A stretch of 64,000 nucleotides of DNA from an uncultured Eggerthellaceae bacterium (GCA_944321455.1 CALULI010000004.1:186001-250000), one strand, 5' to 3'. Shown: positions 33,675 through 39,441, counted from the stretch's first letter. The notes: generated from the sequence alone by a model not told the origin. Made by a program: numbers and translations.

Positions 33675-36014
33675 TTACTTGTGCTTCTGCGAAGATGCAT
33701 TAGGCATCATGCGACTTGCCTCAAACACACCTTCAATACCTTGCAGTTTCTTCAACAAGCGATCAATAACAGCCGTATCAGAAATCTGGAACAAGAAGCG
33801 CATCTCTACCATATTGTCACGATGCGTGGTTGAACTTGACGAAACAACATTGGCACCATATTCCGAAAAGACCTGTACAACGTCACGCAACAAATTCATG
33901 CGATCAAGCGCTTCAACGAAGATTTCAACATTAAAGAGTGCATCTCCCGTTGGTACATCATCTTCCCAGTGCGCTTCAATGATGCGTTCAGGGTTTTTCA
34001 GCAAATCCTTGGCATTAGGACAGTCACGGCGATGAACCGAAACGCCACGACCACGCGTCACAAAGCCAACAATGTCATCTCCTGGAACAGGATTGCAGCA
34101 GCGCGACAAACGTACCAGCACATCATCAATGCCCTTAATCACAACGCCGTTAGAAGCAGTTTGATGTTTTTTAGGACGCTTAACGCTGGTAAGCATAGGA
34201 GGCATCTTGCCTGTTGACATCTTCGACGATCCAATAACGGGCTTTTCCGCATCATCGGTGGCGTTATCAACCAACAGCTTCAGCATACGGTTGGCCACAT
34301 GGGTCGCACTTTCTTTGTTGTTACCCACGTTAACCAACATGTCATCAGCGTCTTTGAAGCCAAGGGATTCAGCAACCTGCTTCATGGCACGCATGCTTTG
34401 AGCGGACGAAAGACCCAAGCCGTGCTTGCGCATTTCGCGCGTCAGCTTATCGCGTCCCTTTTCCAGGTCATCCCCACGACTCATCTTTGAGAAGTAGGAG
34501 CGAATCTTAGAACGTGCCGAAGGGGTTTTGACAATGTTGAGCCAGTTGCGTGACGGAGAAGCACTCTTCTGCGTCAGAATCTCAACACGATCACCCAGCT
34601 GGAGGGTATAACTCAACGGAACAATAGAGCCGTTAACTTTCGCACCAACACAATGGTGGCCTACTTCGGTATGGATAGCATAAGCAAAGTCAACAGGTGT
34701 TGATCCTGTACGCAAGCTCATCGCTTTGCCCTTCGGCGTAAAGACGTAGACTTCTTTTGGATCAAGATCAACCTTGAGCGACTTCAAGAATTCACGCGAA
34801 TCCTTCGTTTCGTCTTGCCAGTCAACCATTTCGCGCAGCCAGGCAATCTGCTTATCAAGATTAGTTTCGGCGCCCTTGCCGCCCTTTTCCTTGTAGCGCC
34901 AATGAGCTGCAACGCCATATTCGCTCATGCGGTGCATTTCTTCGGTACGAATTTGCACCTCAAGCGGACGACCCGCAGGACCAATAACCGTTGTATGCAA
35001 GCTCTGATACATGTTGAACTTAGGCATAGCAATGTAGTCCTTGAAGCGCCCTGGCATTGGATGCCACAAACTATGAACAGCACCCAAGGCGGAATAGCAG
35101 TCCTTCACGGTATCCACAATAATACGGACCGCAATTAAGTCATAGATTTCAGAGAAGCCTTTGCCCTTTTTGGACATCTTCTGATAGATGGAATACAGAT
35201 GCTTTGGCCTGCCCATAATTTGAGCTTGAACGCCAATCTTGTTCATTTCCCCGTGGAGAATATCAATCACGCTTTGCAGGTATTCTTCGCGTTCATGGCG
35301 CGTTTCAGCAACCATGCGTGAAACCTGCTTAAACTTGGAAGGCTCTAAATAGAAAAAAGCAAGGTCTTCAAGTTCCCACTTAATTGAGTTGATTCCCAAG
35401 CGATGCGCAATAGGAGCATAGATTTCAAGCGTTTCACGTGCCTTGAAAATACGACGGTCTTCGCGCAGTGCCGAAAGCGTTCTCATGTTGTGCAAACGGT
35501 CAGAAAGCTTAATAACCATGACGCGAATGTCTTTGCTCATGGCAATCAGCATTTTTCTGAAGGTTTCGGCCTGTTCATCGGTTAAGTCTTCTACTTCAAG
35601 TTTGGTAATCTTGGTAACGCCATCAACCAGTTCAGCAACGGCACTGCCAAACTCTTCGGCCACTTCCTCTTTCGTTGTTGACGAATCCTCAACAGTGTCA
35701 TGCAAAAGAGCAGCGCACAGCGTTTCCACGTCCATGTGCAAATCTGCAAGGATGATAGCTACTTCAACAGGATGAATAATGAACGGCTCACCTGATTTAC
35801 GCTTTTGACCATTATGAGCAGCCGATGCAAAGGTAAACGCCTTCTCAAGCATTTTGAGATCTGCGTCATTCAAATAGCTGCTCGCAAGCGTCTCAAGCGC
35901 CTGAAAACGCTCTTCGGGCGTTGCCCCCACAGGAGCAGTGGTTGCAGACCTGATTGTCAGATCTATAGAAGAAGCCTGCGATTGGTGCTGCTCGGTGGCA
36001 CTATGTTGAGCCAT
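33675..36014 (-). CDS. rel: Bifunctional (p)ppGpp synthetase/hydrolase (Rel)
   Basis: A 779-residue RSH enzyme controlling the stringent response. The N-terminal HD hydrolase has GQKRKSGEPFIIHPVEVA and HDTVED. The synthetase domain follows, with IMGRPKHLYSIYQKM and GRFKDYIAMPKFNMYQSLH; the RFKD form is the one seen in bifunctional enzymes. Then come TGS (VYVFTPKGKAMSLRTGSTPVDFAYAIH), a zinc-finger/helical region (RLSRCCNPVPGDDIVGF) and a C-terminal ACT domain. All domains are complete. ATG 36014 has AAAGGAGGA. It starts 16 nt after the RecJ-RecQ stop. Confidence 0.96.
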   Translation of the reverse strand: MAQHSATEQHQSQASSIDLTIRSATTAPVGATPEERFQALETLASSYLNDADLKMLEKAFTFASAAHNGQKRKSGEPFIIHPVEVAIILADLHMDVETLCAALLHDTVEDSSTTKEEVAEEFGSAVAELVDGVTKITKLEVEDLTDEQAETFRKMLIAMSKDIRVMVIKLSDRLHNMRTLSALREDRRIFKARETLEIYAPIAHRLGINSIKWELEDLAFFYLEPSKFKQVSRMVAETRHEREEYLQSVIDILHGEMNKIGVQAQIMGRPKHLYSIYQKMSKKGKGFSEIYDLIAVRIIVDTVKDCYSALGAVHSLWHPMPGRFKDYIAMPKFNMYQSLHTTVIGPAGRPLEVQIRTEEMHRMSEYGVAAHWRYKEKGGKGAETNLDKQIAWLREMVDWQDETKDSREFLKSLKVDLDPKEVYVFTPKGKAMSLRTGSTPVDFAYAIHTEVGHHCVGAKVNGSIVPLSYTLQLGDRVEILTQKSASPSRNWLNIVKTPSARSKIRSYFSKMSRGDDLEKGRDKLTREMRKHGLGLSSAQSMRAMKQVAESLGFKDADDMLVNVGNNKESATHVANRMLKLLVDNATDDAEKPVIGSSKMSTGKMPPMLTSVKRPKKHQTASNGVVIKGIDDVLVRLSRCCNPVPGDDIVGFVTRGRGVSVHRRDCPNAKDLLKNPERIIEAHWEDDVPTGDALFNVEIFVEALDRMNLLRDVVQVFSEYGANVVSSSSTTHRDNMVEMRFLFQISDTAVIDRLLKKLQGIEGVFEASRMMPNASSQKHK

Positions 36015-36029
36015 GTCTATCCTCCTTTC

Positions 36030-39000
36030 CTAGGGAAGAAGGGGTTTTCGTATACGATTCTGCAAGTCAGTTGCAGAACTTGATAATACCCATTCTTTGA
36101 ACGAGATGAATGAATCTATTTCATCAAGCCCCTCACGATAGCGAACGCTATCTACCAGCTCTACTTTTCCTTTATAGTCTACGACACAAACCATGCAGCT
36201 TGATTCAGTTTTCGCTGGTGTGTGCTTAGTTTTAATAAGTCCCAGCTCCTCAAATACCGTCAAACCGCACTGAATTTGCGAAGGGGTAATAGATGATGCA
36301 GGAAATGGTGCAGAAATCTGCTTTGCGAATTCCTGAGGATCCACCAAGAAATAGTCCGTATCACTTTTGCGCTGGCAGGCGCGCAGTGAACGATAGATCT
36401 GCGCCATATCATCGTGGTTAGGAGTAGCGCTGTTAAGAAGTGACCGGTTAATATCAGCGTCTTCCCTACCGAAAAGCAAATGGATGGTAGCTTCGTGACC
36501 GTCACGCCCTGCGCGGCCGCTCATCTGGTTAAATTCCACCTCGCTGAACGGCAGATGATACAAAATAACGTGACGAATGCCAGGAATATCAATGCCTTCA
36601 CCAAACGCTGAGGTAGCTACCAAAATCTGCAGCTCTCCTACCCTAAACATCTCTTCAACATAGGCACGCTCGTCTCGCGCAAGACCTGCGTTATAAAAAC
36701 CAATAAGAGAAGCAATATGAGGAACGTGCTTGCGCAACTCACGAGCAAGCGCGATGGATTCATAGCGCGAATTGACGTAGATAATGGTCTTTTCGCCTGC
36801 AGACACTAAGTTAGTCAGATAGCGTTCACGCTTCTTGATATTGCGCTGATCATCAATGGTTAAGTTAAGGCGGGGCGTCTCATCAAACACGTGACGGGTG
36901 ATGTTGAAGGCATCCATAATGTGATGAGCAACCGCTTCATCAGCCGTCGCCGTCAGCGCCAGCACGGGTGGAGCTCCCAACAACGCAACTGCTTCAGACA
37001 AGCGACGATACGCAGGACGATACCCTGCCCGTGACAGTGCCACATGATGCGCTTCGTCAACAACCACAAAACCAAACGAAGTTGTCTGGGAAAGATCTTC
37101 ACAGTGAGCATCAAGATATTCAGGCGTTGTTAAAACAATATCAACCTCCTTGCGGCCAAGCGCCTGCATAACAACTCTTCGTTGCTCCTGGTTGCATGAT
37201 CCATCCAGAACAGCAACGGCAATACCAAAATCACGAAGCTTTTCTTGCAGATGAAATGCCTGGTCAGCAATGAGTGCTCGCAGTGGATAAATAAACAAGC
37301 TGGGGCGCTGATGGACAAGCGCTAATTCAACGGCATGAATATAAAAGATGAGTGACTTGCCGCGTCCGGTGCCCATGACACTGAAAACTGACGTGTTGCG
37401 ATCCAACTGATCAAGAATTGCCTTCTGCGCATCGTGCAAATCGTGATCACCAATAAAGGCCTTAACCACTTCACGACGCAGGCGATCAACATCGCGCTTG
37501 GCTACTTCCTGCCAATAGTCACGCCCATCAAGGCGATCAATTTCTTCTTCTACTTCATGAAGAGATGTTGTCCACGTTTCTTCGTCAAAATCATCAAAGA
37601 GATTCGTGATGAACTGATGGTCTTCTTCGCACAAACACGCCTCGAGTGCACAGCAGGGCTCAACGGGCGTGAGCGATGAAATCATAGCCTTAACGGAACG
37701 GCGTCCTTTCCATTCATCAATCTGAACTTCAAACACCGCATCAAGCACCGTAGCGGGAGCAAGCAATTCGTCAATGTTGGAGCAATGGAACATGATGCCT
37801 GAAACCGCGTGCTTGCCATCGGTAAGCTGACAAGAAAGATGATTTTTATCGGCACCAACCGCACGACCATTGGCCAGCATGACGCTGTGAGCTAAATAGC
37901 GCGGCGTGGGGTTTTCCTGGCCAAAGGGGGCCAGTATATCAAGCTTGCCAACATTTGCCAGGGTTAATTCGCCAAGATCAATTTGGGCATCCACGGTAAT
38001 ACGCGGGATGAAACTATCGGCAGGAAGCGTGTCCATATACGCGCATAAGCGCTCACGGAACGCGTCAATGTTTTTGGTTGGAAGGGTTACCCCAACAGCG
38101 GCTTCGTGGCCACCAAAGCGCGTCAGAAGATCTGAACAGGACTCAACTGCCTTGAAGAGGTTTACCTGACCAACGCTGCGGCCAGAACCATGCGCTTCAT
38201 CACCATCAATAGTAAAGAGAATCGAAGGCACGCCGTAGATGTTTACTAAACGCGACGCAACAATGCCTTTAACCCCTTCATGCCAGCCTTCGCCAGCCAC
38301 CACTAAGGCACGTTGTCCGTGATAGATCTGAGCAGCTTGTTCTTTTGCCACATCAGCAAGCTCCGCCTCAATTGAACGGCGCCTGTTGTTGGTTTTTTCA
38401 AGCTCTAAGGCAAGCGAGGCAGATTCAACGTAGTCATCACACATAAGCAGATCAAGAGCAAGCTGAGCATTACCCATACGCCCTGCCGCATTGAGACGCG
38501 GAATAATGGTAAAGCTTAAATTGGTGGACGAAACATCTTCATCCGAACAACCTGCCTGGGCAAGCAGTGCCGCCACACAGGGGCGCGGATTCTTTTTGAT
38601 CATCTCAATGCCGTGCGCCACAAGAGCGCGATTTTGATCGCGCATAGGCATTAAGTCCGCTACCGTACCAAGCATGGCAAGATCAATAAGACTTTGCCAC
38701 AGATGAGGCTTGCCGAAGCGTGCACCTAGCGCCTGAATAACTTTGAGGGCCACCCCTGCACCTGCTAAAAGCGAACTTTCATTGTTGGTGCATTTAGGAT
38801 CAACTACCACCACGTTTTCAGGAACTAAATCTGACGGCTCATGGTGGTCGGTCACAATTAAATCCACACCCGCTTCTTGCAAAAGAGGGGTTTCGTTCTT
38901 ACACGCAATGCCGTTATCAACGGTGATAATCAAATCAGGCTTATAGGTAAGAGCACGCTTAATTGCCGCTTCGGACAATCCGTACCCCTCTTCAAAACGC

Positions 39001-39341
39001 AGCGGAATAAACGGTGTTGCCTGCGCCCCTACCGCCCGTAGTCCGCGCGTCATGATAGACGTTGCAGAAATGCCGTCTAAGTCAAAGTCTCCAAAAACAA
39101 GAATGTGCTTGTTGTCCACAATTGCCTGATAGAGCTGATCAACCGCTTCCTGCATCTGATCAATGTCATAGGGATTGAGCCAGTCACGATCAAGGGAGGG
39201 GTTCAAAAAATGGAGCGCCTTATCAAGCGTGTCAAAGCCACGCGCAGCAAGCGTTGCACCAATAAATTGCGGAATATGAAGATGAGAGCACAACTCATCA
39301 ACAACGTCAGGACGAGCCGTGCGAAGATTAATACGCGCACT
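36030..39341 (-). CDS. RecJ exonuclease fused to a RecQ-like helicase
   Basis: A protein of about 1103 residues with two enzyme halves. Residues 1 to about 575 are RecJ: motif I GDFDLDG at 84-90, TVDNG, the DHH triad at 165-167, LAMLGTVADL, and the DHHA1 part with FGGHEAAVG. RecJ degrades 5' single strands. After a Glu/Asp-rich linker a superfamily 2 helicase begins: Walker A GTGRGKS at 657-663, DEAH at 762-765, SAFGEGIDIPG, and QMSGRAGRDG near 945. It resembles RecQ but shows no RQC zinc cysteines or HRDC domain; a winged-helix-like tail follows. RecQ and RecJ cooperate in the RecF repair pathway, so the fusion is sensible. Start: ATG 39341 with AAGG nine nt upstream; ATG 39377 is the alternative. 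Confidence 0.88.
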   Translation of the reverse strand, partial: SARINLRTARPDVVDELCSHLHIPQFIGATLAARGFDTLDKALHFLNPSLDRDWLNPYDIDQMQEAVDQLYQAIVDNKHILVFGDFDLDGISATSIMTRGLRAVGAQATPFIPLRFEEGYGLSEAAIKRALTYKPDLIITVDNGIACKNETPLLQEAGVDLIVTDHHEPSDLVPENVVVVDPKCTNNESSLLAGAGVALKVIQALGARFGKPHLWQSLIDLAMLGTVADLMPMRDQNRALVAHGIEMIKKNPRPCVAALLAQAGCSDEDVSSTNLSFTIIPRLNAAGRMGNAQLALDLLMCDDYVESASLALELEKTNNRRRSIEAELADVAKEQAAQIYHGQRALVVAGEGWHEGVKGIVASRLVNIYGVPSILFTIDGDEAHGSGRSVGQVNLFKAVESCSDLLTRFGGHEAAVGVTLPTKNIDAFRERLCAYMDTLPADSFIPRITVDAQIDLGELTLANVGKLDILAPFGQENPTPRYLAHSVMLANGRAVGADKNHLSCQLTDGKHAVSGIMFHCSNIDELLAPATVLDAVFEVQIDEWKGRRSVKAMISSLTPVEPCCALEACLCEEDHQFITNLFDDFDEETWTTSLHEVEEEIDRLDGRDYWQEVAKRDVDRLRREVVKAFIGDHDLHDAQKAILDQLDRNTSVFSVMGTGRGKSLIFYIHAVELALVHQRPSLFIYPLRALIADQAFHLQEKLRDFGIAVAVLDGSCNQEQRRVVMQALGRKEVDIVLTTPEYLDAHCEDLSQTTSFGFVVVDEAHHVALSRAGYRPAYRRLSEAVALLGAPPVLALTATADEAVAHHIMDAFNITRHVFDETPRLNLTIDDQRNIKKRERYLTNLVSAGEKTIIYVNSRYESIALARELRKHVPHIASLIGFYNAGLARDERAYVEEMFRVGELQILVATSAFGEGIDIPGIRHVILYHLPFSEVEFNQMSGRAGRDGHEATIHLLFGREDADINRSLLNSATPNHDDMAQIYRSLRACQRKSDTDYFLVDPQEFAKQISAPFPASSITPSQIQCGLTVFEELGLIKTKHTPAKTESSCMVCVVDYKGKVELVDSVRYREGLDEIDSFISFKEWVLSSSATDLQNRIRKPLLP

Positions 39342-39441
39342 CATAGCAATTTGCCTTATCAGGATTGTTTTTCGCATCTATTGTCGCACACTTGAGAGGT
39401 GAGCGCGCTCATAAATGCCAATTATGGAGCTCTATTGAGTG

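Follow-up and report, generated by a model that had tools for sequence, protein, structure and literature searches.

A RecJ nuclease joined to a RecQ-like helicase, and RecJ tails that look like decayed copies of its motor

Introduction

RecQ and RecJ divide the labour of DNA resection in E. coli as two proteins, according to a passage in PMC4846377 that cites Morimatsu 2014. A 64,000-nucleotide stretch of DNA from an uncultured Eggerthellaceae bacterium, called the window here, raises the question of whether the two can also be one: a sequence-only reading had placed a complete RecJ and a RecQ-like helicase in a single polypeptide and had guessed at a lineage trait. Is the fusion real, how far does it extend, and how does it relate to the C-terminal extensions of other RecJ proteins?

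Results

The open reading frame concerned runs over positions 36030..39377 of the minus strand and encodes 1115 aa beginning with ATG; it is a single ORF in relatives as well, and the plus strand over it is full of stops. Because the relatives begin with 'MSA(R/Q)', the protein more probably starts at Met12 (codon 39344-39342). The end at 39341 given by the sequence-only reading lies one codon short of this probable start, and its residue numbers run 12 below the longest-ORF numbering used here, in which every motif that it named was found.

Pfam and NCBIfam domains bear out the claim of two enzymes in this one minus-strand frame (all coordinates below are on the same strand). The N-terminal half is a RecJ with a DHH domain (aa 91-238, 38664..39107; PF01368, 72.6 bits; GDFDLDG at 96-102 and DHH at 177-179), a DHHA1 domain (aa 356-448, 38034..38312; PF02272, 52.4 bits; GGH at 422) and an OB domain (RecJ_OB; aa 462-567, 37677..37994; PF17768, 83.2 bits), and the recJ model TIGR00644 matches aa 36-568 at 485.5 bits against a cut-off of 396.9. 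A linker (aa 570-634, 37476..37670) leads into helicase lobe 1 (aa 635-837, 36867..37475; DEAD domain PF00270 at aa 650-816, 77.6 bits), which bears the Walker A motif GTGRGKS at 669-675, DEAHH at 774-778 and TAT at 809, and then into lobe 2 (aa 838-975, 36453..36866; Helicase_C PF00271 at aa 853-960, 84.6 bits) with TSAFGEG and, at 954-960, GRAGRDG. The SF2 motifs I, II, III, V and VI are all present in this half. A C-terminal winged-helix-like domain (aa 976-1115, 36033..36452) closes the chain and is followed, as context, by relA/spoT (33675..36014; TIGR00691, 834.6 bits). The window protein is therefore RecJ and a complete SF2 helicase in one chain, and the fusion is real.

In the source genome (1.55 Mb, 99.7% complete) a DHH-family search found no second recJ; it returned two further ORFs of the family, neither a recJ, one of which (L002) we take to be a CBS-type inorganic pyrophosphatase and the other, of 334 aa beside infB, presumably NrnA. 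No second recQ was found in this genome either, the next matches to RecQ models being a DEAD-box protein and weaker SF2 hits; a free-standing RecQ-like ORF is also listed in about half of the 59 genomes sampled from the order. A pair of adjoining PDDEXK_1 ORFs, 1277 and 913 aa long (G000:C4:123575-128232), is very likely AddAB. The relA gene lies directly downstream of the fusion, and the recJ-relA order is common to the Bacillota loci L126 and L128; the order in L124, also of Bacillota, is recJ-apt-relA.

The fusion is recurrent. All 59 of the order's genomes had a match, in a single frame of at least 1000 aa in 47 of them, and most of the remaining frames were shortened by the end of a contig or by a break in the frame. 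At the level of the class, 146 of 149 genomes matched, with frames mostly of 1100-1300 aa among the matches listed, and in a sample of the phylum the fusion also turns up in the families f34 and f87, f34 including Ca. Oleimmundimicrobium (whose L135 sequence is identical to L080). A scan of genomes with the helicase half gave 80 loci, of which 75 encode RecJ in the same frame and five run off a contig end; the 80 loci include Thermincola ferriacetica and MAGs labelled Bacillota, and a fusion confined to Coriobacteriia was rejected on this ground. The guess of a lineage trait thus holds with a wider spread, over Coriobacteriia, Ca. Oleimmundimicrobium and relatives, and Bacillota including Thermincola. 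When Bacillota, the phylum of the Thermincola MAG, was sampled evenly (398 genomes), about 31 had a helicase of the fusion type, at 440-624 bits and in frames of about 1200 aa; below 440 bits there was a gap, and then came ordinary RecQs, none of them above 234 bits. Since both the scan loci and the Bacillota sample show it fused, helicases of this subfamily occur almost only joined to RecJ, with one clear exception (genome G573, described below).

This recurrence also disposes of the artefacts that a fused frame invites. That sequencing or assembly joined two genes has practically no probability, the same ORF appearing in well over a hundred independent genomes, and we reject it; a missed stop or frameshift between the halves, which the sequence-only reading had itself raised, is ruled out by the same single ORF in dozens of independent genomes. 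Its other worry, an isolated fusion with separate recJ and recQ genes elsewhere, is refuted by the recurrence and by the lack of a second recJ or recQ in the genome. Two observations arose alongside. At L070 (genome G063) the RecJ ORF ends at 571 aa, with the stop inside the match, and the sister L114 is an intact fusion; the short ORF reflects a recent loss, a split or an assembly error. GenBank records from phage collections (OR844993.1, OR846632.1, MT838782.1 and similar) contain bacterial recJ genes, probably as contaminating host DNA.

What kind of helicase is joined to RecJ? RecQ models match aa 632-1003 of the window protein below their cut-offs (TIGR00614, 184.3 against 219.8 bits; TIGR01389, 196.7 against 640.2 bits). 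The absence of RQC zinc cysteines and of HRDC, on which the first reading had remarked, is general: the four-Cys pattern is missing from all 167 intact fusions and present in 10 of the 13 RecQ-type controls, and Pfam scans of the window protein and its relatives gave no HRDC. In structural models, the fusion helicase is nearest to the RecQ family in fold. The lobe 1 model (pLDDT 90.9) had WRN as its best VIA match (Z 37.2, rmsd 2.7 over 363 residues), followed for the helicase model by BLM (Z 36.3), RecQL4 (35.9) and D. radiodurans RecQ (34.1), against Z 29.7 for the best DEAD-box match; lobe 2 (pLDDT 93.7) matched RecQ at Z 22.3. The modelled C-terminus runs helix-strand-helix-helix-strand-strand followed by a long helix, an element order that makes it winged-helix-like, and weak sequence matches of the C-terminal profile include winged-helix regulators. 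No Pfam family matched the last about 130 aa of the window protein.

The lack of RQC zinc and HRDC, together with the availability of AddAB for double-strand ends, would suit a helicase half that acts as an ssDNA translocase or as a remodeller of SSB or RecA, clearing the track of RecJ at single-strand gaps only. We consider this fairly unlikely, as the best fold matches, over about 365 residues, are to unwinding enzymes of the RecQ family, and as the fusion does have a winged-helix domain.

The motifs of both enzymes are conserved. Among 153 complete fusions, selected for their Walker A motif and their lobe 1 score, motifs that played no part in the selection were present almost throughout: DE(A/S/C)HH in 152, the RecJ motif GD.D.DG in all 153 and DHH in 151. 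In a helicase tree with few RecQ rows and some long branches, the fused helicases form a single clade (SH-aLRT 100) outside the ordinary and the Bacteroidota RecQs, and do not group inside known RecQs. Bacteroidota have a recJ followed directly by a recQ of the zinc type, as two ORFs (L121:4013-7663 and L122:4001-7616); as the neighbouring RecQ bears the zinc motif and falls outside the fused-helicase clade, this is a separate arrangement. In L122 the recJ and recQ ORFs overlap by 8 bases. An origin of the fusion from such Bacteroidota neighbours was considered and found no support in the helicase tree.

The linker is the site of a HIRAN domain in most relatives. Six fusions (L155, L135, L205, L100, L107 and L103) matched HIRAN (PF08797) at 39-67 bits, and a profile of our own found it in 89 of 167 fusions, including nearly all of those from Bacillota. 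A Pfam scan found no HIRAN in the window protein, whose linker measures 66 aa as against about 157-230 aa in fusions with HIRAN. The window's family and one sister family both lack the domain and have probably lost it.

RecJ proteins that lack a working helicase, about 700-1050 aa long, also bear a C-terminal extension, and in Bacilli and Actinomycetota these tails look, by profile comparison, like dead copies of the fusion helicase. Actinobacterial tails align with lobe 2 and the winged helix of the fusion (hhalign 99%, E 2e-18 to 4e-19, and 98.6% in a further comparison), decayed Bacillota tails with the fusion at 100% (E 2e-45), and Bacilli tails both with the end of lobe 2 and the winged helix (96.0%, E 4e-9) and with the decayed Bacillota set (97.3%). 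Reversed-profile controls reached 1.2% at most, and none of 1470 shuffled and reversed control tails matched at 0.01. Plain BLASTP already connects several decayed tails to the fusion helicase. The Bacilli tails, in Listeria, Staphylococcus, Enterococcus and Paenibacillus, are PF10141 (ssDNA-exonuc_C), and L253 and L295 match helicase profiles and PF10141 together. The relative L100 scored 17.3 bits with PF10141, below its cut-off of 26.4, and the window's own genome gave no match to that family at E<=10. When the decayed winged-helix profile was compared with the PDB, S. aureus RecJ (8y30) ranked first, weakly (E 0.048; the profile holds one Bacilli row).

Within Bacillota, segment profiles reveal a graded series from two dead lobes with a winged helix (L280, L295, L296, L297, L301 and L313), through one lobe with a winged helix, to a winged helix only and finally to nothing. 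The 19 lobe-bearing dead copies (a count that leaves out L299, an intact fusion) lack Walker A, which is partly so by definition, and lack R.GRD of motif VI; the RecJ motifs are kept in all of them. In genome G573 a RecJ (L280) is joined to a two-lobed helicase that is dead, and a separate, intact HIRAN-helicase-winged helix protein of 657 aa (L279) lies elsewhere; the helicases of the two are sisters in the helicase tree. Beyond these phyla, the C-terminal region of Fusobacterium vincentii RecJ (L134, 845 aa) resembles a decayed lobe 1 without lobe 2; it is in the right position ('IGNFEYNSIQKK...DRKRGATT'), with an hhalign probability of only 7.5%, and such an origin is suggestive only. For the tail of D. 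radiodurans RecJ, profiles of the fusion C-terminus and of the decayed winged helices detected no sequence link in searches of the PDB. Structural matches listed by Foldseek and VIA were taken up by helicases, with no RecJ chain among them, and speak neither for nor against such a link.

In which direction did the change run? On RecJ-core trees the intact fusions need 8-9 changes, and an AU test (40 rows, L299 excluded; simple model) rejected a single clade of them at p of about 1e-89. Such scatter might also result if short RecJ tails came first, or if the same helicase was captured several times. We judge this quite improbable: the dead copies L280, L295, L297, L301 and L313 hold lobes 1 and 2 of the subfamily at the same place, some dead copies are sisters of intact fusions (L297 with L276/L278, and L301/L302 with L288/L290), the fused helicases form one clade, and repeated capture of one subfamily at one junction is less simple than loss. 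The dead copy L086, moreover, falls among the f34 fusions. The ancestors of the dead copies were fused, for these copies carry the same helicase, and in the same position; as the intact fusions are not one clade, repeated decay of the motor is the simplest reading.

The patchiness of the fusion in Bacillota (about 31 of 398 genomes) might instead point to gene transfer of the whole fused recJ between Bacillota and Actinomycetota rather than to common descent. This, too, is unlikely, given that the fused gene precedes relA, as do unfused recJ genes of Bacillota, that the actinobacterial fusions cluster together in the helicase tree, and that decayed copies occur in both phyla, which speaks for an old fusion.

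Discussion

We regard it as probable that the fusion is a bifunctional nuclease-helicase which couples 5'-3' digestion of ssDNA by RecJ to a RecQ-like motor, and that in many lineages the motor was later lost, leaving the C-terminal domain of RecJ. The firm part of this reading is the architecture, its spread, the conserved motifs of both enzymes, the homology of tails and helicase, and the repeated loss. Activity, polarity, coupling and SSB docking we infer as follows. By analogy with RecQ, the motor would most likely move 3'-5' on the surviving strand, and the displaced 5' strand could be fed straight into the RecJ active site. The HIRAN domain of HLTF binds 3' ends, and in those relatives that have the domain it could hold the DNA end. 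One polypeptide would in this way do the work of RecQ and RecJ in the RecF pathway, widening gaps and resecting blunt or 3'-tailed ends. The fusion may be the 'single end-resection machine' of the sequence-only reading, although with AddAB in the same genome it would not be alone in resecting ends; because AddAB is present, gap enlargement and the repair of stalled forks are likelier daily roles than resection of double-strand ends. Unwinding of duplex DNA may also be weak, because the strand-separating RQC of RecQ is replaced here.

After the death of the motor, the protein would have shrunk from the motor side, with the winged helix lasting longest, which may have been retained for SSB to dock on. 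In D. radiodurans, SSB-Ct binds the C-terminal domain of RecJ (PMC4846377). SSB is also bound by RecJ and RecQ of B. subtilis and, at a C-terminal region, by RecQ of E. coli (PMC3000357); docking is therefore a plausible reason for keeping the winged helix. A bolder extension, which we put forward tentatively as a possibility, is that the ancestral RecJ of Bacillota and Actinomycetota, and perhaps of a wider group including Deinococcus with its domain IV, was a RecJ-HIRAN-RecQ-like helicase-nuclease, and that every RecJ C-terminal domain there is a motor fossil kept as an SSB docking platform, after many losses or after the HIRAN-helicase became its own gene (as in G573).

The fusion shares its enzyme cores, and the likely 5'-resection labour, with the separate RecJ and RecQ of the RecF pathway in E. 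coli and D. radiodurans. There, however, the two are encoded by two genes and RecQ carries the RQC zinc site and often HRDC, whereas the fusion is one polypeptide with no zinc, another C-terminal domain and, in most relatives, HIRAN. PF10141 of Bacilli and domain IV of Deinococcus occupy the same place after the OB domain as the fusion helicase but, unlike it, have no helicase motifs left; those who described the Deinococcus C-terminal domain found no defined homolog of it with HHpred (PMC4663267). A motor and a nuclease in one polypeptide are also found in WRN (a 3'-5' exonuclease with RecQ) and in DinG with an exonuclease domain (PMC12345164), whose nucleases belong to other families and have 3'-5' polarity, whereas the RecJ of the fusion is a DHH enzyme. 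Our search covered the open-access literature, subscription papers lying outside it, and found there no description of a RecJ-RecQ fusion, of its HIRAN version or of the origin of the tails; Rocha et al. 2005 (PMC1193525) treats RecJ and RecQ and leaves the fusion unmentioned. The sequence databases surely hold such fusions under the name RecJ. Both halves are of known kinds, and what is new here is the view of RecJ tails as decaying helicase copies.

RecQ and RecJ, the textbook example of separate partners, are one chain in whole bacterial classes, so that a single enzyme lends itself to testing how unwinding and 5' digestion are coupled. An origin is also offered, at least for Bacilli and Actinomycetota, for the RecJ C-terminal domain, which in Bacilli bears no other name than PF10141; descent from a decayed helicase predicts where RecJ tails may still be in contact with DNA or SSB. 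The finding also suggests that the annotation 'RecJ' hides helicases.
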